Below, piece after piece: positions 1,339 through 56,840 of a stretch of DNA of 64,000 bases (position 1 is its first letter; each line of letters begins with the position of its first letter). Source of the DNA: Siniperca chuatsi (lineage: Eukaryota; Chordata; Actinopteri; Centrarchiformes; Sinipercidae); NCBI RefSeq assembly GCF_020085105.1, contig NC_058046.1, positions 14,429,175 to 14,493,174 of the forward strand. The letters are read 5' to 3'. A program made the position numbers and the translations under genes. Below the pieces are notes generated by a model. That model saw nothing but the letters and a program-made list of their open reading frames with translations. It ran no database searches and was not told where the DNA came from.

Positions 1339-19231
<17,893 letters not shown>

Positions 19232-20330: not shown

Positions 20331-23192
20331 CAGTGTTGATTTACAGATCTGATGTAAAATAATTTCTCTCCAGAGAAAATGCCTTTTCTTGGTACAATGA
20401 AGTATTTCTCAAGAACCAAATGAGCCCGGGTATTTATTGTTATAGTAATTACATAAATAATGTAAAGGTGGAAAGGTACTGTTGAATTTAGCCCTATAAT
20501 TGCCTTCCAATGTGTAGCCATTGGTCTATGTTGAATATACTATGTTGCTCACTCATTCCTTTTCTCCATTTATTTCTCACTCAACACTATGAGAATAATG
20601 TTGTGTGACATTGAGCCGTCTGACACACCTGTTTGATGTCTGACCTTTGTTCACAATATGAGCTGATAACTGTAAACCTGTTTTGTGCCATTACAGTTAA
20701 GCTTGCATTGGGCTGACTGAGTTGCGTGTGGAGTGCAATCCAGGACATGTGAGTAGGAGGAGTAATACAGAAGTGAGGACTTAAATGGCACACTGGTGTG
20801 TGTTTGACATAAGTTTCAGAGGAATTTTTTGACACCCAGCAAACACAAAAAACAACAAAGCCGAATATAAATATCCCTTATTCATCTCATCTTCGGTTCA
20901 CTATTTATAGTTGGAGCTTATCATTTCAGACTACAGAAGGAAAGCATTTCCTTTTCCACCTTGCTAAATATTCATTCCCCTACATGTAACCTCACTCTCC
21001 CTCAATAATTATTCCATTACTATTCTGTTGTGCTTTTTTATAAAAACACGAGGAGCAGAGCAGTGTTGTTGCACAGAAAACTGCCAGACTGGCACGACTG
21101 AAATTGTCCCTCGCTCTACTTAACCCAACAGAAAGTCCTGCAAAATACATTAAGCTGTAATGAGACTGGAGTCTTGCTGAGACACAGTTTGGGTTAACGC
21201 ACTTTAAAAGGATCAAGATATATTTCACATACATGAATAGATTATAAAGATTCCTGAAAGATGCAGGTATCTTTTTACATAAACTTGTGTTTTCTTTTGA
21301 TGATGGAATTTCACGTATTTATCCCAAGAAGATTGGTATCATTTAGATTATTCATATTTTGGATTTGTGTAATCTGATGTACCTTTACTACATTTATCTG
21401 TATCAGATTGAAATGTGTCCTTTCTCATTTTAGTCAATAGTAAAAACAGTGAACTCATACTCCTATTAGATGTAGCGGAATTAACACAAATAAAAACATT
21501 AATGTTGAAACTACCTTGAAAGGAGTGTCTTTGCTCCAGTAAGGGCACAATATATTTCAAGATCAGGAAACACACCATCTTTCACATCCTTTCAAATTAA
21601 TATTATTTCTTTATGTACCAGCTGCACACACTTATTTGCAAGGAAATGTGATCTCCACACAAGAAGTTTTTCTACTGCAACATAATAAATTTGGTGTTGC
21701 TGCTTCAGTCAAAATAGAACTCTCTGGAACAAAAGTCTATGGTTTTAAGTATTTGTTTACATCTTCCTACATCAGGATGAGCAGGAATGCCACTGTATGT
21801 AGAACAACTTCCTTTTGTTTAATAAGTGACATGAAACATTGATGCCCTGCGATTCAGTGTAAAATCTGAGCCATTTCATATGAATAATTAATGGAAGCCA
21901 ACTGGAAATGTGACTCTGTCGACTGTAGCTCTCACAGTAACTATGTGACTGTAAGCAAGCAGTGACAGGTCTTCATCCTGCTCCGTTATATAACAATGCA
22001 GAAGAAAACAGTGCTGAGCTTTCACAAAAGAAAAGACCCGAGGCTTTCTGCATCTGTTTTATTTGACATTCACAAGTAACACACACACACACAAAACAGA
22101 TAGTTACTGCTCTCACCGCAATTGAGTCAGTCCCTCTCCCTAACCATTATTGTGTTATGTGGTTTGACAAATAGCCCTCACCTGCACTGCGGGGCAGACC
22201 AGAGCTGGCGTCGATGGGTGTATGAGTGGTGCTCTAAATTGTGTGAGAGCAGAGTTAGTTACAATTTAGTGCCTACAAGTGTGGTGGAGTGCGTGTAGAG
22301 GGTACACCTGAGGACCCGACAAGAGGTCTCTTTCAATTGGTGCTGATGACAAAAATAGAGACCTTGAAGCAGTTTGAGATCTAAGATATAAACATGTGAA
22401 AGGATCAGAAAAGAGGATGTTATCTTGTGGTGAGTATTGGTATGCATATCTCTTCAGAACAAGTGTGTGCTGGCGGCATCAGAGGTTCAGTTCAGAATGT
22501 GTGAGAGCAGCATACTGAAACATTTACATCACATTGAACAAAACTGTGCAGAGTATAAATTTGACTAGTACAACCTTTAATCCAGCCACATTAGGACATC
22601 ATAAGCTTCGTTACAAATGTGGCTGAAAACACATTCAATGCACAACTAAGAAAACACAAAAGTGATGTTTCACAAGATGGGCATGAATCATGTGAACCAG
22701 CAACACTAATCTTTACGGACGTCAGAGCACAGCGCCCTGACAGTTTTCACAACAGCAGGTCCCAGAACAGTCAGTGACTCTTCACAACTCAATAAGTTAC
22801 ACTCTGATGAAAACTGTGACTCAGCCAGTTTTCAAAACGATTACTCAATCATCTCCACCTCTAGGCGATCAGATTTTTAAAAAAAAAAATACCTCCGCTG
22901 AATCATCATGTCAACCCACAAAGGCCATTTAATCTATATTTTAAAAGAGTTACCCAGTGGGTAATACTTACAATCCATTGATCAATACAAGTGAAAATAA
23001 TGTGTTTTGTGATGACAAACAACTTCTAATTAAGGAATAGATTTGACATCTTTGTGCTGTAAAGTACAAGATCATTTACTGATATGATATTCCTCCTGAA
23101 CATGGAGTAAAATACAGTACTTGTAGTTCTCATTTTTGCATACAGAGGAACTCCTCTGCCTGACATCAGTGTGAGTTGGCGGACGGTTGAGT
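20331..23192. other. Intergenic region between convergent bmp1 and disp3
   Basis: No exon recognised. It should contain the disp3 3'UTR at its right end. TTTATT at about 22058 (AATAAA on the minus strand) is one possible disp3 poly(A) signal; ATTAAA candidates on the minus strand lie nearer, around 22575 and 22926. A short CA run lies near 22080. Otherwise nothing distinctive is seen. Confidence 0.5.
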
Positions 23193-26100
23193 TTACGTGC
23201 TGATTGATTGCCAGGCCAACGCTCCCAGCTGTCCTCCCACCCAGCACAGAGCTGCTCCCAAGGCTGCAGCCGCCATCACAGCCAGGCTGGCCTTCAGCAC
23301 GGCGCCGGGGGGTCTGCTGAAGTGGGCAGGGGCCATGCACGCCAACATGGCCACAGTCACGGTCAGGGTGAACAAAATGGAGACGGCGGTGTTAATGGCC
23401 ACTATCTGGCCAAACTTAGCAAAAGGCACAATGACACAGAAGAAGAGAGGGACTGTGGAGATCACCGTGGTGATGGCGCTGGACACTATGGCAACTCCCA
23501 CATGGTTCACTGCCTGCAGGGTCCGCCTCTGCCTCTCTGCCAGAGGCTCCTGGGAACAAAACACAATTTACTAGAAGGAGTCTTGATTCATGAGCCTTCA
23601 GGGCGCTTCTCGCCTTATTAAATCCAAAATCTTAGTCATTACCTTGTTTAACGTGTGTAAACAGAAAATTCTGTGGAAGTTTTTCACAATTGCTCATAAC
23701 TGCTGCTGTGAAACAAATTTACACTCCCATACCGAGTTATGACCAGGCGTAGAGGGCATTGTCTCCCCAGCCAGCAGGTATCCCTCCACCAGGTGCAGAC
23801 AGTAATCCACTGAAGATCCCACAAGTATAGAGAGAGAAATCGCCTCCACTGCTCCCATCTCCCAGCCCAGCCAATACATGACCGCCACCACCAGACAGAT
23901 CACTCCTGTTGAGGGCCAAAAACCCATAATTACACGCATGATCCCGACCCATGCCTGAATATTCAATTTTAAAAATCCATTAAAAGTCATTTCCAAACAT
24001 GAATATGCAACTTCATCTCTTACCTAGAATGGTTATGAGTACTGGCAGCAGCAGCAGAGGATGTGCAGTAAACACAGACACAGCTGCCACACAGATGGCC
24101 AGAGACAGCAGCAGACTCCAGAGAGCACTCTCCACACCTACAAACAGACCAGAGAGCAGTATATGATCAGATATTTACATACTGCTGCGCTCACGCTCCC
24201 TTTTCAGTTTGCATAACAAAAACCACATCTCTTCGACATGCAATGCCACCTCTCACTTGCCTATGATTTCCATGAAGATCTGCTTCCAGTGCTCGCAGGT
24301 CTGGAAACCCCGTTGCAGAGCAGAGGACTGCGGGAGGGAGGCGAGCTGCTCCTGGATGAAGTTCTCCCACTGAAGGAAGTCAGAATAGGTCTGAAAGGAG
24401 GATTTCCCCTTGTATGTGGTCTTGGGAGAAGAGAGGTAGAGCGTTAGGCACGGCACCAACTGAAAGTGAAGTGGAATTGTGCTGCTCTGTGATGCAGCAA
24501 GATGAAAAGCTGAAAGATGAAAGGACTTACAGACTCAAAGGCCATGGACAGCCAGCGGACCTTGCCTCCGTGCATTCCCACCGCTCCGTGGGAGAGCTGC
24601 CCCGGGAGCAGGTTGGGTTCAGGGAGAGAGTGACAATCAGGATGGAGCAGAGGCAGAATAGAGGACAGTTTATTACCTGACGAGAACAGAAGAAAGGACA
24701 TTACCTTTTACACACTTTCATTCTCTATATATGATTATTTTATCAGAAATGTATGTCATGGTTTATCTTCTTTTTGTTCAGGATTTGATTTGCCGGGTGT
24801 TTTTTTACCTAGTTGTTAAGCACTATATATTATATAAATAAGGTTTTAGGGCTGCAACTACTGATTATTTTCATTATCGATTAATCTCCTGATTGACTGA
24901 TTCATTATTTTGTTTATAAAATGTCAGAAAAAAGTGAAAAATGGCCATCACAATTTCCCAAACCCCAAGTTAACATCTTCAGATGTCATGTTTTGTCCAA
25001 CCGGCAGTCCAAAACCCAAAAATATTTAATTTGCTATAAAAGGAGAATAAGAAAACCAACAAATATTCACATTTGAGAAGTTGGAACTAGTGCATTTTTG
25101 GCACTTTTGCTTAAAAAAAAAAAAGGCTTTAACAGTCAAATTGATTTGATTTTTTGTTGATAAATTAATTAATCAAATAATCAAACAAACCATTTCAGCT
25201 CTGTAAGGTTTATATTATTGTTTTATGATATTTTATGCTAAAATAAAAGATTCCACTCTGAATTGCGTTACCTGAAGGCAAACACTGAGCTCCTCCTGGC
25301 TTCACAAGTTGTCTGTTTGCACTAATAGCTTTACATATTTTGCAAAGATGCCCCATTTCCTGGAAAATATCAAAGTCTGGATCCAATATAATGCTGCCCT
25401 TTGGAGACAATCAAACATCACGTCAGCCACATGAGAATATAATTTAAAAGTCTGGCTCTGCTTTATTTCTGTTGATTATTCAGATATACTGACACAGGCC
25501 TGACCCTCACCATATCTCCAATAACATGGTTGTCCCTGTGTTCAGTTCGGTTGACTCCCAAGATGCCAAACACAACAAAGACCATTGCCCCGGTGTCGAC
25601 CAGAGGACGCACCGCTGGGTGGCCACATGCACCGCCGCTGCATGGGTTGAAGCCAAACGTTTTGGATGGTTTCGTTCTGGCAGCAGATGAGGGATCTTTG
25701 AAAAAATAACCAGAGACAAATCTCTAAATGGCATTTATTTATACAGTGTAAAAATACAGTATGTGGGCAACTGGAGTGATGTGGAAAAATCCTCCAGTGG
25801 GTTCAGAGAGTGCCACTTTAAGAAGCTATATTTGAAAAAAGTGTCAAATCAGAGAATTTTCTCTATTTTTAAGACACAGTGTGACACATGCAGTGCGAAA
25901 ACTGTTTTCCTGATGGGCTAACAAACCATCTTTATGTTAATGATGCTTTCTGACACTAGCTCGCTCACCACTGGGGAGAGGAGTATAAAAGGTTCCCTGT
26001 GTGGGTCCATCAGGCCCAGAACTGACGCCGCAGCCAGGCGGGTTGACACACACTCGGCTGGGATGAGGGCTCAGGCGGCGCTGGGCAAAGCACAGTCTCC

Positions 26101-29100
26101 TAGGAGGAGAAAGCAGAGGTGAAATGACAGATTGTCCACTAAAACAACGTAACAGTCCATCTCACTTTTACTCTGATTTCCTCATTTGTGTTTCACCTGC
26201 TGTGCTGCTGTGGAGACGATGCTGCATAAAAAGAAAACTCTGGCGTCCAGCCATGACGGGGGTCACATGAGGCGGATGTGATCATCCAGCTGGGGTACGG
26301 GTGGTACACATGGGAAACACACACTGTCATTCTGGTGGTGTAATTGCTGCGGGGCTGATTATAAGCCTATTCAGATAAAACAAGATTAGTTATAAGCCGC
26401 TTTAGTGGCGGATATCACAGTTGGGAGATATAACGTTACAAATTATATAAAATAAAATTATTAAGTTGACTTTTATTGCTCTCTAACCTGAAATGATGAC
26501 ACCTCTTCATGCTCTATGCCGCACAGTTTCCACGGAGAGGGAGTGCTGGTGTTAAGGGAGAAGCGGTAAAGGGTTGTAGAGGCTCTGAGGTCCAACTTTG
26601 ATATGTACACTGTAAGTAAAGAGCCTAAAAAAAAGTACAAAGTGCAATATTTCAAAATAGTGGAATAGGTTTTAAATAAGGAGGGAGAGGATATTTATGT
26701 GTTGAATGTTTTACCTGTTTGGTTGGTGCTTGAATTTGGTTTTACTGAGCTCCGAGTAGCAGTGGAGGTTGTTGTGCTCGGCGTCTGCTGATGTGTAGAA
26801 AACTTAAATGCTGACGAGGAAGTGTGGGTGTACAAAGGGTGGGGCTTTTCCATGAACACACCTGCAGGACACAACGTGCATTTCAGATATTTATTTTGGA
26901 TCTCTGAGGTTAGCTGGCAGTGTGTTTCCATCACTGCCACAGTCTCACCTGAGCACATAGGGCAGGAGATGCCTTGACCGCTAAGGTTGCTCCTCAGAGC
27001 CAGCAGAGTCTGGAGGTTTGTGTCCCGGCGGAACAGAAGGGGGGCGTGGGTGGCCGGCCTCAGGAGACAGCAGCACCCGGCAGATAAGAGCAAAACCAAG
27101 AGGAAGACACCTGGGCCGACGGGAAGACAATGATAAACAATGGCAGAGAGGAGGGTCTGATGGAGTAGATAGAGAAGCTGAGGGACAGATCAGGAACAAG
27201 GATCAATTACAGTCATTCCTGAAAAGAAGGAGGATGAATACTCCATGATAGGCGATTGCTCTTCCCCTCAGGCCGGACACAGATCCAATACAGTTCTTAT
27301 TTGAGCTGCAGGTTACTCTCATGTCTAAATCATAGATCAAGAGCTTGACAGATATAAAGGCTGATTCTCCCTGAAGTTTAGGTTCCTGAATATAAATTGA
27401 GCTTAGCCGTATCAAAATCCCTTGTGAGTTCTCAGAGTTTATAGCAAGTCTCACCTAGAATGGCTTTTCGTCTCTCCACAGCTGGCTCTGCCAATAAGTG
27501 CTTCAGGGCCCACTGGAGATTTGTGCTCACCACACCCACATGCTGCTGCCCTGGAGGGGACAGAGGTGTCTCCACTGACAGAGAAAGAATGGCTGCATCA
27601 CCGTCTGTGTCACAGGAGCCTGGCCGAGACAAAGACAGGGGCTGAGTGGTGCCTGGACAGCAGCGTTTTACAGCCTGGACTCATTCCCTTTCCCATTCTC
27701 CCCCAATCATTCATTCAATGCTAGGGAGATAATAATCTCACCTGGCTCCATCTCCACTGACAGAAGTGCCACATCATCATCCTCGTCTGACAAAGGGCCG
27801 TGGCTGGCTGACAGGCCCGAAAACAGCTTCCAGCTTCAGAGGGAAGAGGAAGTTTAGGGAGAGAGACAGCTGAAGGGATTACATCTCGCCTGTGGTGTCG
27901 TGCAGCATGCACAAATAACATCTCACACAACAGTAAGAAATGCCTTACCAATTCAACCAGGCATGTTCCTGAGGCTCCACACTCTCAGTCCAGACACACA
28001 GGGTGGCTGGCATAAGGATGGACACCCAAAGCCAGCAGCAGCTGACAATGAGGGCCATGAATAGGCCAAAGTCATGCACGGCTGGGATCTAGGTGTCAGT
28101 TAAACAAAGCACAGTGTAAAGGACCTAGAAACATTCAATTTGTGCTTATCGCATAAAAATGGCTGTCTGCTGAGAGAGGCACTTCTATTCATCCATAGCA
28201 GGGGAGTCATTTATACTTCTTGTACAGATCCTGTTAAGGACTGCATTTTTCTTCTTACCTGAGAGAAGGTGTTAGCAGCATAGGCAGCTGCAGTGGTGAA
28301 GGAGGTGAGGAAAGTAGCTCGGCCAGCTGTTTTAATTGTGTAGATCATGCGCTGCTGTGGCTGGCGCAGATGAGAAGCCTGTCTAAAGGTGCTGATGAAC
28401 ACAAATACGTCATCCACCCCTGAACAACAGTGAGAGAACAAAAGATCTGCTTTATTACATATTATGGTAAATGTACTGTAAAAAGGTGTTTTTGCAACCT
28501 TTATAGGAATAGTTCTGACAGCCGGTAGCTTTACTTATATTGGTTTAGCTACACGGCTTTTGGAGGTTGTTGTTTTACGGGGGTTTATGTGCTGGACTAT
28601 TTCTTGGCCTGGTGCTGTTACTTCCTTAAGTCTCTGCTCGTTGCCTCACAGTGATGACAAGACTTCAGGAAGCTAGTGTTCCGGCCAAGAAATCCATCAC
28701 AAACCTTCCCATAAAACCACAACATGTTGTTTTTCACACTTCGTTTTTTGTACGGATTAAACAAACAACATATTACGTGTTAATTTGTGAGCTTTAGAGA
28801 TGTTGGTAGGCGGATATTGTCACTGTTGCACAGACCCATGCTAGCTATTTTCTCCAGTTTCCAGTCTTTATGCTAAGCTAAGCTAACTGGCTGCTGGCTA
28901 TAAGCATCATATTTAACATACAGACATGAGAGTGGGATCGATCTTCTCATCTGTTCCCAAAATTTCAAACAATTCCTTTAATCAAAAAATTGGTGTATTT
29001 CTTTTCCCTTACCAATACCGATAATGACAAAGGCTGCAACTCCATTGAGAATGCCCAGGTACCTCACGCCAAAGACAACATGGTATAAGAAAAGAGCCAT

Positions 29101-30875
29101 CAAGCAGCTCAGTCCGATGCTAGCGAGTCCAAAGAAAGTCAGAAACACTGCAGAGAGACGATAAAACAAGGAACTTGTAAACATTCATATGCTACCAAAT
29201 AACCGACTTTGACAGTTCATAGACTGAGATATGTACATGCCAATGCAAGTGGAATAAGGAACAGGTCATACTGTACCAGAAAAGGAGGTAAGGACATAGA
29301 CGAGCACAGTAATGCAGGCTCCGCTGATGACAGCCAGCATCATATCATTGTGGAAGGTGTGTCTCACCTCATCATCAAACAGCTCTGTCCCCCCATACAG
29401 CACCTTCACCTGGCTGCGACGAGAAGGAAGCAGATACAAAACAACATCAAATTTAAACTGCAACAAGGTGTAGTACATGTAAATAATGCAGCAAGATAAA
29501 CCCCTGAAAGGAATGATGATGTACTGTAATAAATGGCCAATATTGCAGTAATTTTCTCCTGACCCGGTAGATTGCTTGGCCAGGATGTCTGCATACTGAA
29601 CCACAAAGTTTTTGAAGCGAGATCTTTGCTCGTCAGCTCGGTCCTGCAGGGAGTAGTAGGAAGGAAGAGGAGCTCCGAAGTGGATCTCACTGCGTAAGAG
29701 AGAGGACGAGAGGTGCTCAGGGGACAGACTCTCATCCACGTACCAGTAGAACTGTGGGTGGGTGATGGCCAGACTTAGAGAACCTGGGAATACATACATG
29801 GCAAATCAGCACTGTTAGGAGGACTCTTACAGGTGTTCCTTTATGCTTGAAAGCTGTTCTTTGTTCTTTCTTTCTTCACTGTGGACTCACCTTGAATATC
29901 AGCAAGATCGGGGCCCATGCCATCATAGTATATCTTCCCTCCTCTCTCACTGGGGTAGAGGTAAGACAGGAGTGAGCTGGGTGGGGAGCAGTAGGACGGT
30001 CCCAGTGGCAGATCCCTCAACATCTCCAGAGGCTTCCAGCAGAACTGGTGAAACTGCGGGTGCTGCATGAGCAGCCGCTCCACGTGGTGAATCGTCTGCA
30101 GGCGCTCTGGGGTGAAGATGTTGCGATCGCCCTCCCCTTGAGCCACAAACACCAGCTCGATCCTCCACAGAGCCTGGCTCTGCAAGTAGTAATTGGGAGC
30201 AAACCTGCGCCTCCTAATGAGCGGTAAAGTGGAGTTTCCATCCCATGATCTCTCCTCGTCCTCCTCTGCTCTGTGATTTAAGTTCTTGTGCTTCCCCATT
30301 TCCTTCTGACCCAAATCAGGCGCTGTCCTTTTATCTCTGCCCGCCGCGGCTCCTCTCCTCTGATCATCTCCTGCATGTAAAGGGTCGTTTCGAGGAGTGG
30401 AGGACCTCGTGCCCTCATTATCTGTCCTGTTGAACACTCTCTGTCTGCCCAGCTTCTCCAGCAGAAGCTCCCGCAGGGCCTCAGACTCGCTGTTATCTAA
30501 GCCTCGCCTACGCCTGTCCCAGGACCCCAGCTGAGTCTTTACAGCAATGGTGAGGGCGTCGAAGCGCTCGGCAGAGAAGTGACTGTGAACCTCAAAGGCA
30601 CTGTAGGAGAGGTCTATGTCCAGAGGAGGGCAGTAGAGGAGCATGTAGGCAAACAGGGCACATGGCAGCAGGACAACTACCCCTATAATTACTCCACTGG
30701 CCCACGGCTGTGTGTACACCCACCCCACTGCCCTCCACAGCCCACACACCTCCCCAGAGAAACAGCTCTGTCCTGCTGCGTGTGGTAGTCCATCCTCTTC
30801 CTGCTGCTCCTCCTCCTCATCTTCCTCCCCTCCCCAGCTGGTCTGAAACAGCAGCGGCTCATCGTCCACATCCAT
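23193..30875 (-). CDS. disp3: Dispatched homologue 3 (PTCHD2), RND-family multipass membrane protein, complete coding region
   Basis: Polytopic protein of the Patched/Dispatched family with a sterol-sensing domain; DISP3 is linked to cholesterol homeostasis and neural progenitor differentiation and resides in endomembranes. Exons (5' to 3' on minus): 30875-29891, 29783-29564, 29413-29277, 29147-29013, 28419-28259, 28088-27949, 27833-27742, 27619-27455, 27110-26949, 26861-26715, 26624-26488, 26354-26197, 26099-25969, 25695-25511, 25398-25272, 24676-24531, 24420-24261, 24137-24024, 23905-23733, 23549-23193. They join to 1344 codons including the stop, near the human length (about 1392). An acidic N-terminus is followed by TM1 and then a long lumenal loop. 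Two proton-relay motifs typical of the family are visible: GIGVDDVFVF and LVGSSVDYCLHLVEG. Exon 17 uses a GC donor (gcaagt). The ATG at 30875 sits just inside an acceptor, so there is an upstream leader exon. Divergent segments are the loop after TM1 and the hydrophilic loop in exons 7-8. Confidence 0.95.
24848..25206 (+). mobile_element. Non-autonomous DNA transposon (MITE-like) in a disp3 intron
   Basis: Starts AGGGCTGCAACTA with CATTATCGATTAATC close behind, and ends with a reverse complement of similar ends (AATTAATCAAATAATC ... CAGCTCTG). The ends form imperfect terminal inverted repeats. The family is one I recognise as abundant in teleosts; a second fragment lies at 11872-12015. It sits between disp3 exons at 25272 and 24676 and has no coding capacity. 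Confidence 0.65.
28505..28982. mobile_element. Non-autonomous DNA transposon (MITE-like) with terminal inverted repeats in a disp3 intron
   Basis: The left end TAGGAATAGTTCTGAC and the reverse complement of the right end (TTAAAGGAATTGTTTGAAA) match imperfectly over about 15 bases. The interior contains ATGCTAAGCTAAGCTAAC and CATGAGAGTGG, which I recall from a frequent percomorph repeat. It occupies most of the intron between disp3 exons 29013 and 28419. Confidence 0.65.
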
Positions 30876-30887
30876 GCTGGCACCTGT

Positions 30888-32833
30888 CAGGGACACATAA
30901 CACCACTTGATCATCGCTCACTTCAAGCAACACCCCTTTTTCTCCTCGGGCAGGTGAACACGAGCACAAAATAGATGTTTGAACTACCAGCAGCTGACAT
31001 GGGCGTCAGACAAAATGAAGGACAAGGTAACTTCCAAAGTTGCACTGAGCGAGCAAGGATGTGTAAATTAAGTCTGTCCTCAAGCAGCTGTCAATGAAGG
31101 CAGCTCACATGGAGAAAACTGAGGAGGGGAGACCTTTTTTTTCCTCAAGGGCTTTTAAGAGAAAATGGTTGGCTGAGTCCTGCTTTAAGATGCTGATCAC
31201 AAGAGCTTGAGGGTGAGACAGGCTAAAGGCTGTAATTTAATTCTTCTCTCTGTCAGCGTGCGCAAGCCATTATCTCCCTGAGAGAGTCTGCTGATGGCTT
31301 TCTACATATCAGCAGTCGAAGTAGATGTGTCTGCTCTGCAGCAAATTAAATCATCTCACTTGTCTAATTACTGACAAGAAGAGTGATTGGGATATTAGAC
31401 AGAGTTGTGGAAAAAGAGAGGGTTTATCTCCTGTGATGGACAACCTTTGACTAATGGTGTCAATAGGTGGTTTTCTTGACATAAGATACTGCGGACGGTT
31501 TGTATTCACGTGCCAGTGAGCCACCAAACTGCAGCAATGTATCTATTCTCTTTAGAATAGTGCTTTAAGGTCAGGCAGGTATCTCAGTGAATCTTGATTA
31601 TGTGTAAAATATAGTTGCGCTCAGCTCTGTAGCTGAAGTGATAATCCATCATAAAAAAGAAGAATTTACCAATTATACCATTTAATCAATATTTGTAACA
31701 ATGACCAAGCGTCCTGGCGTTAGAAAGCAGAGAAGAAAGACTCTTGAGAGACAAACTCTGGAGCTAAAAATTAACTGCAGGCTTGTTGATTTATGGGATT
31801 TTTGTTTGTGCTCTTACACCTGAACGAACTTTATTTCATGGTAGTGCTAAAGAAGAAAATGTGCTCATGCCTGCTGCAGAACACACACCTCGTGTGCAGT
31901 CACTGTGTCCACAATGTCAGTCTCCAGTTCACTGGTAATGGAGCAGCTTATGGATGTGTTTCATGGCCACATCATTAACAGCCTTGGCTCTCTCACTTTC
32001 TGAGAGAGACAGTTTTTAATGTTCTCAAATGTCCACAGGTCTTACATATGCTAATGCAGTTTTATGGAGGATTTTATGAAAGAGATAAGAAAGCCTGTTG
32101 AGCGGAAAACCAGGAGCTCCACTGTGTCTAATTCTTTATGAAAAAAGGCTTATTTTGGGCCACTTGTTTTTATCTGCACAACATTTCCTTTTATTAATGA
32201 ACATGTCATCTTTCTCACTGACAAGAGCACCAGTGCACCTTTTAATGGGAGAGCAGCAACAGACCAGCATCTGCCCACGCAGCTTCCTGCTCTTTTAGAG
32301 GACAAATTCATTTATGGTGGTGGGAAAGTGTGAAAACAGAGAACCAAATATGCAATCTCAACACAATCCTCTAATTATTTTCAGTTACTTTTGGATTACA
32401 GTGCCTTGATATTTCTGTAATATCAAGGAAAATAATTTTTTCCAATATACAGGCAGTAATTTGGGGTCATTATGACTACACCCATCATGGGCTGTTATTT
32501 CAAAATGAGCACTATTATGTTGTTTTCTATAATGCCATAATGCAAGCCGCTTTTTCCCCTTCAAATGTTTTTCTGTCCAAGTAATGTGACCAATCTTTAA
32601 CAAATATGTGATATAATTGTGCATTTACAGCAAATGAAATAGAATACAGCTGCTAATTTTGGTAATTAGATTATTGTAATCCTGTTACATTTCTTCTCTG
32701 CCTCTGGAGCTTGTTTTGATGATGGTGCTCTCATCAACAGAAGATGAGAGGAGGCACGCAGACAAGCACAGAAATATGACGAGAGAAGTGGAATGGAGGA
32801 AATGGGGAAAGAAAAGCCTGGAGAATGACTGAA

Positions 32834-37992: not shown

Positions 37993-43164
<5,172 letters not shown>

Positions 43165-43811
43165 CCTTCCAATAGACTGGGCACGCTTACTAAATTGATA
43201 AAACAGTACAAACATGAATGGACAGACATAAAGTACTGCAGAGTAACTCAGGTGACCTTAAATCATACTGAAAATAGAATGAGCTAACTCTGAACAAACG
43301 CTAGATAGAAAACGCTATTCCCAAAAGCCCAATAGGAATAAGATTTGCTGCATTCTACTCTGAGCAAGAAAAAACAAAACAGAACACTGTGTTGAATTAA
43401 TGCGACTGCAAATATACAAATACAAATATAAAAAATAAATAAGCTACAGTTATTCCACTGGGAAAACAGTATTGCTTTGCCAAAGGGAAAAAGTGGTCCT
43501 GATGAGAGGGGGTGTAACGCCCAAGCATCAGTTACACCAACACTGTGCCGAATCCTCCCAGATCACACACAAAAGTAGGATTTTAAGTTGAAAACTGGCT
43601 ATTCATCAATCACGGCACTGACCAAACGTCTAAGTTACATGGCAACAAATGATGTAGCAGCACAGGCCCAAAGGCTCGGTATTATCAGCTAATGTTAGCT
43701 GGCTTTAGCTAACGTTACTTGGTAAATGCAGGAAGTGAAAGAGAGAAGTATTAGCTTTGTGCTAACGCTAGCTTAACCCCTGGAATAGCCGATGCTCCAT
43801 TTTGACCTTAC

Positions 43812-45640: not shown

Positions 45641-47293
45641 CTGCCGTCCCTGACGCTCCAGTCCTCTCCCCCACTGGACGGATTACCAGATTCAATTTAG
45701 CCTCTGGCCCAATGGAGTAATCACTCAGTCTGTGCTCATCTGAGGAAAGCATTAGTATGCAATCAACAAAAATGTAAACATTTGATTCATGTGCAAAATA
45801 GATTGGTGGACCAAGCAATTACAGTTCTGCAAAAGAGTTATGAAACAACTGTTGGCAAATCTACCTGCAAGTGCTTTCCCTTTGTAGAGCAACCGCTGCT
45901 GGTTTGCTGGTATGTTGAGACGTTCGGACACAAGTTCCTTCACTGTGGAGACCTTTTCGTCTTCCGTCACCTAGAAGATCAACAACGTGGTGAAACTATA
46001 TCTGGCAAGCATTCTCTCTTTAGATGGACAGTATTTAAATTGCAGGAAAGTGTAGCCAATCTGCAATTCTTACTTTGCATCAACTTCACATAAAACCAAC
46101 GATTAATGAGGACTTCACACTCACAAGTGACAAATGCACCTCTACCTTGGTAAATGGCCTCTTTAGCAGATTCTTCCTATAGAAAATAAACAGTCACTGG
46201 CCTATAGAGGTAGTATTTACCCCATAAGCACTGCAGACATAGCTGAGAACAGGCATGTTAGAGTGTGGGCAGGTACTTTTTTTTTTTACTTTCAGAGCAG
46301 AGCTAGGAGAAACATTGCATGGACTTGATCACTGACGTAGTTTAAAAGAATAGGGTTAAGCGTCACTTCTCTTCTACTGGGTACAAAATTTAGTCCAGTA
46401 TGTGAGATACTTCCCCATTTGATACACACATCATCACATGCTTTAGATTAGTGTTTGGCATCAATGTTGTTCTTTTTTAATTAACTATACACAAAACCTA
46501 AGACTAATGCAGCAGTATACTGATCATATTAAAAACTATAGTGGTTCCTACACTCACATGCTTTGCTGATAAAGTTCATACGCTCCTTTATTTAGCTGTG
46601 GGTGTTTCTACTCATATGTGACCTGCTATAGCCCCAGTCTGTGCCCCATACAGTAACGTTACCATTTTAAAACATGATAGGCACAAACTGGGGCGAGGAC
46701 TGGCCTATAATGAGCAAATAACGTCACAAAGGGAAGGCCAATTAACGATAGTAACGTGTAAGTTAGTAGCTAAGTTATACTGCTGTGCTGGCCTAGCCAA
46801 AACATTTTTCCTAAGATACTGCTTTATTTAAGTATTTGCCTTGTGACTTCCCGTTCCTACAAAAACCACCAAATAAGGACTTACAGAAATCCCTCCCACT
46901 CAACACCGCTGTGTTTGAAGGTGGTAACGCTACGTTACAGTTAACGTTAGTGTCTTTCTCTAAGATGTGGCTCGCAAGCTAGCTAGGAGTAACGTCGTTT
47001 CATAATGGAGCGAGATGTGATTGTACAATGGCTCCATTTAAGCTACACTGTGTGGAGTTTGACAACCTAATCTTTAGACTCAAGCAACATATGCTGCTTC
47101 CCTCAGAGGTAGATCAGCATGTGACAGGACACCGCTGTCGGCTAATCAGCTAGCTTGCCTATAGAGGATAGCTAATGTTGCGAATCAAGCTAGCGTTAGG
47201 GAGATAACAATTAGCAGTTAGCTTGCTCGGCGGTGCTTAACTTACCTGTACACTACATTCTTTTCCTTGAAGCGGTTTCACGGTGAGGATCAT
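44771..47293 (-). CDS. ubl4a: Ubiquitin-like protein 4A (GET5 homologue), complete coding region
   Basis: Component of the BAG6-UBL4A-GET4 complex that hands tail-anchored membrane proteins from SGTA to the TRC40/GET3 pathway in the cytosol. Exons on minus: 47293-47246 (MILTVKPLQGKECSVQ), 45970-45865, 45739-45513, 44878-44771. Joined length is 162 residues (human 157). The N-terminal ubiquitin-like fold spans roughly residues 1-75 (RLLYKGKALADEHRLSDYSI). The conserved C-terminal UBL4 region, which binds BAG6 in the human protein, contains DYERSLRQLSLDDIERLAGR. Between them lies a linker with ten consecutive serines encoded by an AGC repeat, longer and simpler than the human linker. The gene lies 0.9 kb upstream of the dynamin leader and in the same orientation; nothing suggests functional coupling. 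Confidence 0.95.
44986..45053 (+). repeat. (TA)n microsatellite
   Basis: About 34 TA units in the last intron of ubl4a. Confidence 0.95.
45610..45639 (-). repeat. ubl4a: (AGC)10 coding trinucleotide repeat in ubl4a
   Basis: Ten consecutive AGC/GCT units (with a partial unit at one end) encode the polyserine tract of the ubl4a linker in frame. Confidence 0.95.

Positions 47294-49155: not shown

Positions 49156-49239
<84 letters not shown>
49156..49239 (+). repeat. (TATC)n tetranucleotide microsatellite
   Basis: About 21 copies of a four-base unit in the presumed first intron of the PKG-like gene. Confidence 0.95.
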
Positions 49240-49428
49240 CTGGATTTATCTGCTTACCTGCCTGCTTGTATTTCTGTCTGTCTATATCAAGCAAATATGG
49301 GGATATGTATAAGCAAACTCTCCTGTGTTCTAATCCAAGTAGAAGCCATTATACCTTATTGATTCCCTGTTTATATTATTAATTAATTATTAATAATTAA
49401 TAATAATAATAGTAATAATAATCTTTCT

Positions 49429-49787: not shown

Positions 49788-52700
49788 ATGGGTACCCTTC
49801 GAGACCTCCAATTTGCCCTGCAGCTAAAGATTGAGGAGCTTCGCCAGAGGGACACATTAATAGATGAGTTGGAGCTGGAGTTGGATACAAAGGATGAACT
49901 CATTCGGAGACTGCAGGAAGAACTGGATCGCTACAGAGCCACTGTCTCCCTCCCAGGACCCTCTGCAGCCAGTGCAGGTACAGTATACCGAACATGGTGC
50001 TTTCATATGTCATATTTTAAAGCATCAACAGGTAGCACGAGCCTTAAACCTGACTTGTTGTGCATTTTTCCTGTAGCTTGCTCAGCTCAAATTGAGGACA
50101 AGCAGAGAGCCAAAAGGAAAACAGTAATTTCTGAGCCCTTCACCCTGGACCCGGTGACTCTCGCCATGGTTTCACAAAGAAGCTGTGACAAAAGCCAGGA
50201 GTAAGAGCACACAGTGTTCCCTCAGCTCCCACCTGCTCTAACTATAAAATCGGTTCCTCAAATGTTCAAGGCTCACCGACTGCTTTTCCACATGACTCAG
50301 AATCAATAAATATTTCGAATCAAACACTGTAGCCTATGACACTGCATTCAAGGCGTTTAATAGCTTACCCTTAAATGTTACATCAGTATCCTACCTTCAT
50401 GCCCTCAGGTCTCAGAGGCTGATTCAGGCAGCATTTTTGAGAAATGAGTTGTTGAAGAACCTTGACGAAGGAGAAATCAAAGCCATCATAGCCTGTATGT
50501 ACTCCACCACCATCAATCAAGGCTGCTATGTCGTTCAGGAGGGGACCGACGGGGCGCAAGCTTATGTTTTAGAAGGTAAATCATTCTCTTCTTACAGTCG
50601 CTAACATTAATCATGCTTGAGGATATTTATTAACATTTCCTTGTGATGACAGGTGCTTAAGAATAGTCTGATAAAACGATTTGTTTTTATCATATCTTTG
50701 TATATCAACTGTCTCGCTGCTGGCTCATAATTCGATTAGTTAGTAATTTGACACCACTCTCAAACACAGTGATGTGAGTCAGAATTGCATGTTTGAGCAA
50801 GAAAAGAGGAGGCACTTGGGGGAATGACAAGAGACCCCGCATTGATGTTTTGCGTTGAAATGTCAACTTGATACAAAAGACAGGAGAAAAGAGGTTCTGC
50901 TTTGCCCTGGTTGCAGAGTTCATTAGCGCTTGATTGTCCGCAGGAATCTTGGCTGCATTTGTAACGTGACAGCTGATGGAGAGATTTTCCTCTTGTTATC
51001 CTAACCAGCTAGAGGTGGTGGCCTTGTTTGGCTCAATGATGATTGCGTATCTGTTGTTTTTACACTATGTCTCAGACAGCTGAACGTTCTTGACAGTCTC
51101 CCTACATTTCTTGACACAAAAACACATGCACATAACAGTTCTACTGTGTACGTGCTATATTTCTTCACTGACTGTGTGTTTATTAACAGAAGGGAGGCTG
51201 GATGTGACAAAAGACGGACTGAAGCTTCTCACAATTGAGCCAGAAGACATGTTTGGAGAGCTGGCTCTCCTCTACAACTGCACCCACACCTACTCTGTCT
51301 CAGGTATCAAAGCATTGTGTTGGCTTCTTGGTTTAATATTTGCATGCAGATATTGCTGGAGATCTATCACACTGAAACACTGGTGGAGTTCCACTGCAAT
51401 TAATTCTGATTTGGTGGGGATATAAATAATTCTTGTTTAAGAGAATATCACAAGCAGACGGATTTCTGGCAGTGGTCTTAGACAGAAGACGTTTGTTGAA
51501 TTTAAAATCTAAGACCTTTTGAGATCTTAGACAACACCACAGCTTCAAACAGTTTTCTCTGGGATGTGGGGAATTTAAAACATTTTCTGCTTTACCCAGC
51601 TCCCTGACTGCCACATCTCCTCCCTGCAATCCAACATGCAGTAACTGATTTTTTACAAATAACATTTTCAGAAATAGTTTGTATTCAATTCACTCTTCTG
51701 CATGGTTGCATCATAACCTCTTCATCATCATATATACATTTCTGGTGTAAGAATTTGGGATATTCTTTAGAAAATAGAAAGTGTGCTGTCATTTCCTTCC
51801 AGCATCTGATCACAGATGTCCTGTGGGAAAACTTTGTCATCCATCGCCTGCATCTGACCTGGTTTCACAAATAAATAGGCTGTGGAAATGGCCAGGATCA
51901 GTTTAAATTGAAAAAAAAAAATCACTTTATTTGCCTTTTTTAGTCCCTAAGCTTCTCATTTCCTTTTCTTTCTTTTTTTTACTGCTTTCTTTATCTTGCG
52001 ACCAGTCAATTCCAATTTACTGTGTGTACTACGTGTCTGCTTTCCAGTAACAATGCTCAGCTCATGTCGGCAGTCTGTTGTCTTTTGTTCCATGTCCATT
52101 TCTGTCAGCCCTTCCCTTGGATCTGTTCGGGGCCCACTGTATTTATCTCCTTCCTGACCTGAAATTACTTTTTTTTCATTGTTGCCATCTGAGACCATCA
52201 ATAAGGCTTGTGCTCGTGTGGTCTCTTTCATTGTGACAGTGACAGTGATCATCAGGTCATGGAAGTTCAGGGTGGCGAAGGACATACTGCAGAAAATCCT
52301 CCTTTGAGAGCAATGTTTTTAAAAAAATATAAAAAATAAAAAAATATCCTGCACAGCATTCAGATCCAAATAAAGCCCTGAATTGCGAACTGAGATATCA
52401 GGGCTGCACCATATCATCAAAGGATGGATCTAATTAGACTGTCTAGAGGATATCTACTTCCATTTGCAGGAAGCTTCAGTGAACCAATCAATATGGGTCA
52501 TTATTAATTTACAAAACGCTCTTTCAAGCTCTACTATAAAGAAAAAGGGTAAGGAAATCAGATTAGATTTATATTAACAGTCCTTCTGTGTATGGAAAAC
52601 AAGCACTTACATTTCTTTTTATTCTACATGATGAGCATTTCTAATAGAGTCCTGGCCTGCTTACTGTGTGCTCTTTAGGCTGTAGCTGATCCTGCATTGC

Positions 52701-55700
52701 ACATCCACATCCATCACAAACTACATACGTCTGTTTCAATACTTGCTTTCTTGATCGTGTTTCCACCTGAGCTACTGTGTCACTGACACAGCCTTTATCA
52801 CTTCCTCTGCCTCTGTCTTTTGATCTGCAGCACAAGCGGACAGCAAGCTGTGGGTTATTGACCGCAAGAGCTACCAGACCATACTTATCCAGAGTGCTCT
52901 CAACAGCCTTTCTCATTCAGTGGAATTGCTTAGCAGGTGAACATCAGACCGAAACACTTGATTTGACATGGAGCAGGTCCAGAAAGCTGCTTTTTGTATT
53001 CTACTACTTTCAACCACAGTGCTGCATTTAGGACTGACCAAAATAGCAACATTCCTACGATGTTTCTGAATATGGTCAGGCACCCAGAAACTGTGGAAAA
53101 ATGAAATCAAACCCTTTTCATTGTGGATGATATGTTAGCATGTTCTTTGTACCTGTGTGTCTGCAGCATTCCCTTCCTGCAATCATTGCCAGAGGATGTC
53201 ATCATGAAAATGTCTGATCTCATGGAGGAGGTACAGATTAAGTACTTAAAATCTGAGTGCTGTGTAACCATCACTCGTTCTTTAGACAGAATACAGCCAA
53301 TAGATATGTGTGCACACAGCCGGCACCTTTGTATTTTCTATTTTCAGCTTTCCTTGTGTTGTATCAGTTAACAAGCAGGCGCTATGACAGAGTCAGAATG
53401 AATCCTTCATTGTTACCAGCCAACATCTTTATATCTGTAAGAGAGCTGGTTCTTGTTCTTGCTCTCTTTTCATCCTTTTTTAAATTATTTTCTACTGTTT
53501 GCTCCTCCATCTGTCATTTATTTTTCACAGGCACACTACGCTGAAGGTGACTACATCATTCGACAAGGGGCCACAGGAGACACCTTTTATATCATTAGCA
53601 AAGGCCAGGTAAAGTTTTACGCTCTCTGCCTGCTGCACAGATGAAGTGAGGCTTTCAGAGAAAAAGATTTAGATTGTGGAGGACAAAATGTCAGAGCAGC
53701 TTTAGAAATTACATTATGATGGTGATAATTGACTTTGGCGCTTTTCTACATTGCTCTCCACCATTACCTCTTTTTCATTACCTCTCTCGTTTTGGATTTG
53801 CCAGGTGAAAGTGACAGAAGAGAAGCCAGGCCATGAGGAGCAGAGAGTCCTTTCTAAGCTCTCTGAGAGACAGTGGTTTGGAGAAAAAGCTCTGTGGGGG
53901 TAAGGAGGAAATAATGTACTTTAAGAGGATGTTATGCAGAGGGAACAGCGGCTTTTTATGAAAACAGCACATGATAGTAAAAAGTGAAATTTGTGCCAGC
54001 ATGATATCAACGATGTTGTTTTTAATATATACTGTGTGCTTTACATTGATAACATTATGATTTTCTTATGATACTCTCTTCACTCTGTCTTTAGAGAGGG
54101 TGTTCAGACTGTGAATGTGATTGCTGCTGGCAAAGTTACATGCTTGGTCATAGACAGAGAGTAAGTGGATATTTTGTGTCAAAAAAATTCACTGCTGATT
54201 CAGTTGCTACACTATACTCTTAAATTGGCCATAAATTGATGTGCTTATCCAGAGATATGTAGAATATTCATATGCCTTTGTGTTTTCAGGACCTTCAAAG
54301 ACATCATCGGTGGGTTGGTATTTGACTGCAGTCATGAGGAGCAGCAAAGCCGTGAATCCAAAAGCGAGTAAGGAGCATTACAACACTATTTTCTACAACA
54401 ATTACATGTAATTTGCACCTATAGAAGAATGTATCAGCTCAACTCTGTTTTCCTTGTGAGCAGGTCAGACAAGGATCCTGAACTCCTCTTATCTTCTACC
54501 TTAAGTGATTTCCAGATTATTTGCACTCTAGCAGTTGGGGAGTTTGGTCACGTAGAGCTGGTAAGGGTTGATCTTATAGCAGCTCACAGACAATGACACC
54601 GATCCCCTGTGCTGGTGCCTCCTCGAGAGTCCATGTTTCTATAATGTAATCTATTGATTTCCACGTCTGTAAGGTGCAACTAAAGAGCAACATCAAGTGT
54701 CTTCTTGCCATGAGGGTCCTTAAGAAGAAGCTGATCCACAAAAACGGTCAACGAGAGCACATCCTGAGAGAAGGGCGCATCCTGATGGAGAATCACTGTC
54801 CATTCATAATCAGGTGTCTGTTCTTCAACAGTTATCTAATTAGAATTGTTTTGATAACATAATATGTTAATGATTAAAAAAGATCTTTATCATTTTGCTT
54901 TATTTCTGTCGATCACAGGCTACATAAAACCTTTAGAGACGCTGAGTGCCTGTACATTTTGACAGAAGCTTGTCTTGGTGGGGATTTATGTAGTCTACTC
55001 AAAGATAAGTAGGTATTTTTGGGACTAAAGAAAATAAAGATGCAAGGCCCTTTTTGTCATCATGCTGATAAAATATTTATAGTCCTACCTCTGTGTTTTT
55101 AGCCAAGCTTTCATCACAATGCAATTTTACGACCAGGGTTTGATGTCTTACATCTATGTACATCACACATTTGTTTTGTTGGCTGTGATGCTTAAATCAG
55201 CACTTCTACATACCGTTTCAGAGGATACTTGGACGAATGCAGCACCAGATTCTACACAGCTTGTGTTGTTGAGGCCTTGACCTTTCTTCACTGTCGAGGT
55301 GTCATCTATAGAGATGTCAAGCCTGAAAATGTTGTTCTGGATGAGCATGGTTATGCCAAACTGGTACTATAATTGGTTACAAACTTAAGTCCACATTTTA
55401 AGTGGTCTATTGAATTTTACCAAAGGTAACTGTAAATTTACTGATATCTGCCTTTTGTAGATTGGCTCCAGATGTCTGAAGAAGGTCGAGGTGGGCCAGA
55501 AAACCTGGACATTCTGTGGTACACTGGGATATATGGCACCTGAAATCATCTTAAACAAAGGCCACAGTATATCTGCAGACTTCTGGTCACTGGGTGTTTT
55601 TGTGTTTGACCTTCTGAGTGGTGGGTAAGTTTTACAGTTTTGTGCAGCCCTACTTTTTAAGCTCATTTCTCCAGTTGTAGATTGATAGTAATAGGCTTGT

Positions 55701-56539
55701 GTTTTCCTCTCCAGACTCCCATTCAGCGGCTCTGACCCGATGAAGATTCTCACTGCAACCATTCGTGGCATCGATCAGATCGACTTCCCAAAGACCATCA
55801 GCAAAAGTGCCTCCAGTCTCATAAAGAAACTGTGCAGGTGTTGTAAATATGACCCACTACACACCATGAATTATAAAGTTAATTTATAGTGCTTTTTCAG
55901 ACATAAAAACCATCCTCCATTGACCCACCATTATGCATTATATTATACTTCCCCTCCTCCAGCTCCAACACACAAACAGAGCAAATTAAGGAACGATGCA
56001 GGTGTATTGGACACGACCTCTGCTATGACACCACTTCTTGAATGACAGAATCTGATGATTAATTCATAGTTTATTTATTTGTGTGTTCTTATTTGCTTTC
56101 CATCACCAAGGAGCAATCCCTCAGAGAGACTGGGCAGTCAGAGAAATGGGGCCAAGGACATTCAGAAGCACAAGTAAGACGACAGATTTATTACACAGGA
56201 GAAAAACACTGAGGCCTGTGCTTGGAAACATGGTTTTATAGGATGTGATGCTCTTGTTTTTATGCAGATGGTTTGAAGGATTCAACTGGGACGGACTTTG
56301 TAAAGGCACATTAAACCCACCTGTTATTCCCCAAGTAAGATGCGATCAGTTTTGGCTTATTATTTTGTGTTTTGTGATAATCTTGTTGCAGTGAATAGAT
56401 CTACTTTACATGTCGTAGTGATTTTAGTATTTTTATTTTTTACACTGTCTTTCAGGTTAAGCGCCCTTTGGACAGTGGTACACGTGATCATTACTCTGAG
56501 GGATCAGAGGAGCTGTGCACAAACTGGGAGGATTTCTGA
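49788..56539 (+). CDS. cGMP-dependent protein kinase I-beta-like protein, predicted pseudokinase, complete coding region
   Basis: PKG-family architecture of 683 residues: leucine zipper, autoinhibitory linker, two cyclic-nucleotide-binding (CNB) domains, AGC kinase. Exons: 49788-49977, 50077-50200, 50409-50575, 51190-51303, 52831-52936, 53167-53230, 53531-53608, 53805-53899, 54095-54160, 54290-54367, 54464-54560, 54674-54813, 54919-55008, 55222-55363, 55461-55624, 55715-55837, 56111-56173, 56268-56334, 56456-56539. Residues 1-55 closely match PKG I-beta ([22 protein letters not shown]). CNB-A reads [12 protein letters not shown]: the phosphate-binding Arg is His193. CNB-B reads GEKALWGEGVQT: the Arg is Gln317. 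In the kinase, the glycine loop is AVGEFGHV, the ATP lysine is Arg407 (LAMRVLKKK), the DFG Asp is Gly519 ([10 protein letters not shown]), and GTPEY is [13 protein letters not shown], the alpha-C Glu and APE are kept. All exons are open and in phase. Family certain; paralogue uncertain; loss of activity inferred. Confidence 0.93.
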
Positions 56540-56840
56540 CGGATTAGCTGTGAACTGGACAAAGACAATACTTCATCACTTTCAGGTTTAGTCCTCATAA
56601 ATGATTCACTGCCCTCAGTCTAACTGCCATCAAGAATTAATTATATTTTCAGACAAAAATATTTTACACAGTATCAGTAACGGCAGATATTGTTTGATAA
56701 ATAAACCATGCTGCCTATACTGTGTTGAGCTCAGACTGTTTTTGATGCAGAATCTCTATAGATTTATAAACATTAAGAGTTCAGTGATGTGAATGCTGTT
56801 GAATGTAACTCAATAAAAATAGGCTACATGGTCTTTTCTT
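56540..56840 (+). other. 3'UTR and poly(A) signal of the PKG-like gene
   Basis: AATAAA at 56812-56817 lies about 270 bases after the TGA, giving a short, plausible 3'UTR. Confidence 0.65.

Follow-up and report, generated by a model that had tools for sequence, protein, structure and literature searches.

A PKG I-type paralogue in a fish genome, predicted to be a cGMP-blind pseudokinase, with a near-frozen leucine zipper and a coding frame under purifying selection

The protein kinase PKG I is a main effector of nitric oxide (NO) and cyclic GMP (cGMP) signalling in smooth muscle, platelets and neurons. Its leucine zipper determines the partners and the localisation of the enzyme, and splitting the functions of the zipper from those of the kinase usually takes engineered mutants. 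Here we describe a gene, called psPKG in the following, which lies in a 64 kb stretch of Siniperca chuatsi DNA (the window; contig C5, 14429175-14493174). Our best reading, to which we give a probability of roughly one half, is that psPKG is a PKG I-type paralogue kept by selection, uncoupled from cGMP and catalytically dead, which would act through its zipper as a decoy or scaffold.

A pseudokinase has been defined as a kinase fold missing at least one of three residues, the beta3 Lys, the HRD Asp and the DFG Asp (PMC4718504). The exchange known as R177Q in PKG Ialpha and R192Q in PKG Ibeta lowers the cGMP affinity of the first cyclic-nucleotide-binding domain (CNB-A; the second is CNB-B) more than 1e5-fold, and activates the enzyme by permitting closure of the cassette, mimicking the cGMP-bound form without ligand (PMC9417419). 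In a heterodimer the wild-type subunit has been suggested to "likely" inhibit the mutant one (PMC6684604), and the binding of IRAG1 to the zipper of PKG Ibeta involves acidic residues (PMC10298018).

An original prediction made from this DNA had called an intact full-length gene of the PKG Ibeta type, its 19 exons joining to 683 codons without a stop, and this was borne out when the coding frame was rebuilt: 19 exons give 2052 nt (683 codons plus TGA) with 0 internal stops, and 18/18 introns are of the GT-AG type. Among solved structures human PKG Ibeta comes closest (7lv3; E = 7.2e-212 over residues 73-675), with 314 of 602 residues identical, and residues 1-54 find 3nmd, which is a chain of a cGMP-dependent protein kinase (E = 2.7e-19). 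Pfam recognises a Pkinase domain (PF00069, 187.1 bits, residues 383-636) and cNMP_binding (PF00027) in two stretches, while PKcGMP_CC remains under its cut-off of 35 with 30.8 bits. The features of the gene, in window coordinates, are as follows.

49788-56539, + strand: psPKG, entire coding gene, 19 exons, 683 codons plus TGA (GT-AG introns, open frame, match to human PKG Ibeta 7lv3)
49788-49977, + strand: exon 1, PKG Ibeta-type leucine zipper, residues 1-63 (3nmd match; PKcGMP_CC, 30.8 bits)
50077-50200, + strand: exon 2, autoinhibitory/pseudosubstrate segment, KRKTVISEP (alignment to PKG Ibeta)
50409-52936, + strand: exons 3-5, CNB-A (PF00027, two stretches)
51285-51287, + strand: phosphate-binding Arg of CNB-A changed to His193, codon CAC (R192 of human PKG Ibeta, R177 of Ialpha)
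53167-54367, + strand: exons 6-10, CNB-B and linker (gene model and alignment; codon-position asymmetry in CNB-B, p = 0.0021)
54105-54107, + strand: phosphate-binding Arg of CNB-B changed to Gln317, codon CAG (translation, alignment)
54464-56334, + strand: exons 11-18, kinase domain, beginning inside exon 11, and start of the C-terminal tail (PF00069)
54713-54715, + strand: beta3 Lys changed to Arg407, codon AGG (translation, alignment)
55464-55472, + strand: DFG changed to Gly519-Ser520-Arg521, with the Gly519 codon GGC at 55464-55466 (translation, alignment)
56456-56539, + strand: exon 19, C-terminal tail and TGA stop (gene model)
56700-56705, + strand: AATAAA, candidate poly(A) signal found by eye, with a second at 56812-56817

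A TATC tetranucleotide microsatellite occupies window 49160-49240, with the start codon following some 0.55 kb downstream.

The four exchanges emphasised in the original prediction (His193, Gln317, Arg407 and Gly519) were read exactly at the codons given for them, and its glycine loop AVGEFG and P+1 loop GTLGY both occur in the translation. Altogether psPKG has replaced both arginines that hold the cyclic phosphate, the first glycine of the glycine loop, the beta3 Lys, all three DFG residues and the Pro-Glu of the P+1 loop, and has retained the Glu and Thr of the CNB domains, the alpha-C Glu, the YRD motif (Asp501), KPEN, the activation-loop Thr and APE. Two of the three residues that define pseudokinases are missing (beta3 Lys and DFG Asp) and the Asp of the YRD motif is present. 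The assignment of psPKG as a pseudokinase, predicted to be catalytically dead, is well supported by these residues, and with the Arg gone from both CNB-A and CNB-B the protein is also predicted to be cGMP-blind, as had been proposed. The pseudosubstrate, KRQAISAEP in PKG Ibeta, reads KRKTVISEP in psPKG (Ala78 to Thr, Ser80 to Ile), where Ala78 is taken as the P0 residue from the assignment of P+1 to I79 in PMC9417419.

Protein searches of the genome (65 contigs, 718,788,923 bases) revealed at least five further PKG-type loci. Identity to human PKG Ibeta across the aligned part reaches 93.5% for the gene on contig C11 and 90.8% for that on C20, and these genes presumably represent the two PRKG1 duplicates. 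An intact third PKG I-like gene, assembled from 20 exons, is found at C18:2.49-2.51 Mb; it is 56.2% identical to psPKG and possibly corresponds to prkg1l of the zebrafish nomenclature (name from PMC12498267). The locus at C5:4.0 Mb is regarded as PKG2-like, and the one at C16:15.06-15.08 Mb as a further kind. Throughout these five loci the CNB-B Arg, the beta3 Lys and the DFG Asp are canonical (5/5 each), as is the CNB-A Arg in the 4/4 copies recovered, the CNB-A exon of the C20 gene not having been found in the genome. The losses at the four sites are special to psPKG among the PKG loci found in this genome.

For the protein tree seven sequences were used, the human one from residue 72, the PKG2-like and C16a sequences as kinase pieces only, and with one C20 exon unknown. 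In this tree psPKG is the sister of the C18 gene (ultrafast bootstrap 98) and lies outside the group of C11, C20 and human (90), with a branch of 0.67 replacements per site as against 0.16 for the C18 gene. Both genes also have exons 1 and 2 separated by an intron, which is absent from C11 and C20. As judged from the sequences, psPKG is by descent a PKG I paralogue of the PRKG1 and Ibeta type, in agreement with the original prediction. Since the human protein falls together with C11 and C20, the lineage of psPKG and the C18 gene seems to predate the split of fish and tetrapods, although the long branch calls for caution. The C18 gene (C18:2484000-2513999) carries an additional phase-0 intron inside the equivalent of psPKG exon 3, which is present in neither psPKG nor C11 nor C20 and is an apparent intron gain.

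The exceptional feature of psPKG is its zipper, which the original prediction did not mention. At sites invariant in PKG1 and the C18 gene, psPKG shows no change within residues 1-47 (0/46) compared with 151/554 elsewhere (p = 1.3e-6), and changes confined to the C18 gene, taken as a control, amount to 2/46 and 28/554. When residues 1-58 and PRKG1-invariant sites are considered, 3/54 psPKG-only changes stand against 148/546 elsewhere (p = 2.1e-4), with 3/54 and 27/546 for the C18 control; at 8/54 zipper sites psPKG and the C18 gene both depart from PRKG1, and they have L13 and T34 in common. The first 50 residues are identical to those of C18 and of C11 at 43/50 positions each. The zipper of psPKG thus appears near-frozen at the sequence level, while the remainder of the protein has evolved several times faster than in the intact C18 sister, and the part responsible for dimerisation and partner binding is retained in sequence.

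We also considered, and rejected, that the zipper had recently been converted by the C18 gene. Third codon positions differ between psPKG and the C18 gene at 27/50 in the zipper and at 361/632 elsewhere, which argues for constraint at the protein level and not for a recent copy; in the comparison with C20 the divergence of the zipper is somewhat lower (22/50, against 352/593 elsewhere).

A comparison at invariant sites removes one argument of the original prediction, which had read the four changes as independent losses at ligand sites on an otherwise preserved fold. Sites were called invariant if C11, C20, C18 and, where present, the human protein share the residue; psPKG differs at 151 of these 463 sites. 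A list of 41 functional positions was drawn up from general knowledge, and 39 of them fall into the invariant set. These are altered in 9/39 cases and the other invariant sites in 142/424 (Fisher p = 0.21); for a strict kinase set, requiring identity in two outer genes too, the figures are 7/27 and 23/95 (p = 1.0). As functional sites are changed no more often than others, a targeted loss of ligand sites has to be rejected as an argument, and the losses belong to a general acceleration of the CNB domains, linker and kinase, which have been loosened as whole domains. What stands of the original prediction is a full-length gene of the Ibeta type, predicted to be dead and cGMP-blind, with purifying selection on the frame; a special preservation of the rest of the fold does not stand.

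Purifying selection on the coding frame is supported as follows. The ratio of replacement to silent substitution rates (dN/dS, omega) was estimated over 677 codons of four paralogues of one genome. It is 0.155 on the psPKG branch and 0.028 in the background, with twice the log-likelihood difference reaching 9.2 over a single ratio and 14.4 over omega = 1, which is rejected. This speaks, as far as saturated silent sites allow, against the decaying pseudogene that the dN/dS check had been meant to expose. By region, the values against omega = 1 are 10.9 for the zipper plus autoinhibitory segment (residues 1-104), 8.05 for the CNB domains and 4.55 for the kinase. Because of this saturation a model-free test was added, in which nucleotides constant in the relatives were scored for changes in psPKG at codon positions 1, 2 and 3: they amount to 117/518, 96/552 and 104/240 overall (p = 2.9e-13) and to 35/214, 45/235 and 46/99 in the kinase region (p = 9.8e-9). 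The same asymmetry is seen in CNB-B (p = 0.0021), the zipper (0.0057) and the tail (0.034).

If the regulatory module is cGMP-blind and the kinase dead, the zipper is the part most plausibly under selection. From what is known of PKG I, psPKG would bind no cGMP and transfer no phosphate, would form dimers by way of the zipper, be it with a second copy, its C18 sister or PRKG1 products, and would, as a silent subunit, occupy zipper-dependent anchors of the IRAG type and in this way dampen or re-localise NO/cGMP/PKG signalling. With Thr in place of Ala78 the former pseudosubstrate reads KRKT, suggesting that an active partner might phosphorylate it. We put forward with considerable reserve the wider idea that psPKG, as an old duplicate of the PRKG1 type that has lost both second-messenger input and catalytic output, is a naturally occurring vertebrate dominant-negative of PKG I. 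If this is true, a silent, zipper-borne subunit would titrate PKG I dimers or IRAG-type anchors and provide a built-in brake on NO/cGMP signalling in some fish, and psPKG would add a case of a kinase losing sensor and catalyst together. A natural gene with the zipper but neither signalling end would moreover make the separation of zipper and kinase testable in living fish. Among the titles and abstract beginnings of the matches listed in the open-access literature, no pseudo-PKG in fish was found.

Several points weigh against our best reading. Under a stricter control, the ratio of psPKG-only to C18-only changes, the zipper effect is borderline (p = 0.015 to 0.058 with five boundaries), and the boundaries of the zipper were picked after the data had been seen. 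For the kinase taken by itself the rejection of omega = 1 is weak (4.55), saturation makes all omega values rough, and the codon-position asymmetry is not significant in CNB-A (p = 0.14), the autoinhibitory segment (0.16) and the linker (0.66). As the psPKG branch spans the time before as well as after the losses, the constraint on the kinase may in part date from an active past. GC content at third positions is 0.53 in psPKG and 0.63-0.71 in three relatives, which could point to weaker expression. His193 occupies the residue of the human R177Q allele, and CNB-B has Gln at the counterpart; R177Q switches a PKG that is normal in other respects constitutively on, and loss of the CNB-A Arg by itself therefore predicts no inhibitor. 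Finally, the evidence consists of the sequence of one genome, and both heterodimer formation and anchor binding are proposed from what is known of PKG I.

The faster evolution of psPKG (0.67 against 0.16 replacements per site in its sister), the lack of significant asymmetry in CNB-A and the absence of preferential loss at functional sites would also fit a recently non-functionalised duplicate on its way to a pseudogene, with a frame still open by chance. Neutral decay was simulated with substitutions but no indels, starting from the coding sequence of the C18 gene and following 600 codons, until it reached the excess of 121 replacements in psPKG, that is 151 psPKG-only minus 30 C18-only sites. 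About 214 substitutions were required, they produced 6.74 stops on average, and 0/1500 runs remained stop-free. After 100 neutral substitutions 2.9% of the runs were still stop-free; a brief neutral phase leaves little trace, and a short recent one may have occurred in psPKG. We nevertheless consider a duplicate of this kind improbable, given also the rejection of omega = 1, the asymmetry persisting in kinase, CNB-B and zipper, the nearly frozen zipper and the intactness of every splice site. One might further suspect an artefact of the assembly or the gene model, as a single assembly was used, but sequencing error would not yield 151/463 altered invariant sites in a stop-free frame with codon-position bias, and we regard this as next to negligible.

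A rather unlikely, though serious, alternative is that the protein has been retained whole as a scaffold and not as a zipper decoy, for example with a regulatory module that is constitutively closed and docks as activated PKG does. The asymmetry retained in the kinase domain is in its favour, and so is the observation that R192Q in CNB-A imitates the cGMP-bound form without ligand (PMC9417419). The 37 contact and cassette residues of human PKG Ibeta, taken from the text of PMC9417419 plus Ala78 by inference, are kept at 23/37 in psPKG and other sites at 291/565, an excess in the right direction which is not significant (p = 0.24), so that retained docking between the regulatory and catalytic parts was rejected; in the C18 gene 34/37 are retained. 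The pseudosubstrate and P+1 contacts have changed (A78T, I79V, S80I, A81S, P537L, Y582L), and the zipper is conserved far better than either domain. The retention of YRD, KPEN, the alpha-C Glu, the activation-loop Thr and the Glu and Thr of the CNB domains leaves room for a kinase or sensor that is still active through unusual chemistry, be it independent of Mg as in CASK, with a displaced lysine as in WNK, or with CNB domains switched to nucleosides, as a trypanosomatid PKA regulatory subunit without the same arginines binds nucleosides (PMC10959531). CASK, however, which works without a DFG Asp, has an intact glycine loop and beta3 Lys (PMC4718504), both of which are altered in psPKG, and the glycine loop of psPKG contains no lysine, making activity of the CASK or WNK type unlikely. 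In the nucleoside switch an Ala of the cassette becomes Glu (PMC10959531); psPKG keeps A186 and A310, and a switch of this kind was rejected for want of the defining Glu. Taken as a whole, we consider activity by such chemistry very improbable.

Concerning the neighbourhood, window 2000-18000 contains tolloid/BMP1-type exons on the + strand (astacin by Pfam; CUB and EGF by eye). One astacin exon has counterparts at C18:13.80 Mb (100% identity across 57 residues) and at C3:9.91 Mb (93% across 58); its closest copy thus sits on C18, at a distance of 11 Mb from the PKG gene of that contig, and a more distant astacin exon (49%) is found at C18:2.39 Mb. Large exons on the - strand of window 23000-31000 have the look of a membrane protein which we take to be of the dispatched type; Pfam gave no match for two pieces of it, and a genome search with its 358-aa exon gave, at E <= 0.001, no match other than the exon itself. 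A dynamin-like gene follows at 39200-43300 on the - strand (PF00350 in two pieces). Over 37 residues its first GTPase exon is 81% identical to C23:14.10 Mb and 84% to C4:7.92 Mb, so that the gene seems to be one more copy of this type; none of the exon's 8 genome matches lies near C18:2.5 Mb, with a weaker one at C18:11.78 Mb. A ubiquitin-like exon (PF00240) is located at 45755-45970 on the - strand. The three neighbours compared lend weak support to synteny with the C18 gene, and a whole-genome duplication may plausibly be the source of psPKG.

Compared with known systems, psPKG shares with PRKG1/PKG Ibeta (human 7lv3, C11 and C20) the order of zipper, autoinhibitory segment, CNB-A, CNB-B, kinase and tail, the Ibeta-type N-terminus and a near-identical exon layout from exon 3 onward. 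It differs in both cyclic-phosphate arginines, the beta3 Lys, DFG, the first glycine of the glycine loop, the P+1 Pro-Glu and Ala78, and, relative to C11 and C20, in the additional intron between exons 1 and 2. The C18 gene resembles psPKG in its sister position, this intron and the zipper residues L13 and T34, whereas it has canonical active-site residues, canonical arginines at the cGMP sites and an extra intron in the equivalent of exon 3. To our knowledge, the pseudokinases TRIB1, BIR2 and titin are not fused to cyclic-nucleotide-binding domains. They keep the kinase fold with altered catalytic motifs, as psPKG does (PMC4718504), while in psPKG both regulatory CNB domains are altered too. 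The human aortic disease allele PRKG1 p.Arg177Gln (PMC6684604, PMC9417419) changes the same Arg of CNB-A, yet its kinase is active and constitutively on, whereas psPKG has His there, has lost the Arg of CNB-B too and carries a kinase predicted to be dead. The trypanosomatid PKA regulatory subunit (PMC10959531) has likewise lost both cyclic-phosphate arginines; psPKG departs from it in having no Ala to Glu ribose switch and in its CNB domains being fused to a kinase that is predicted to be dead.

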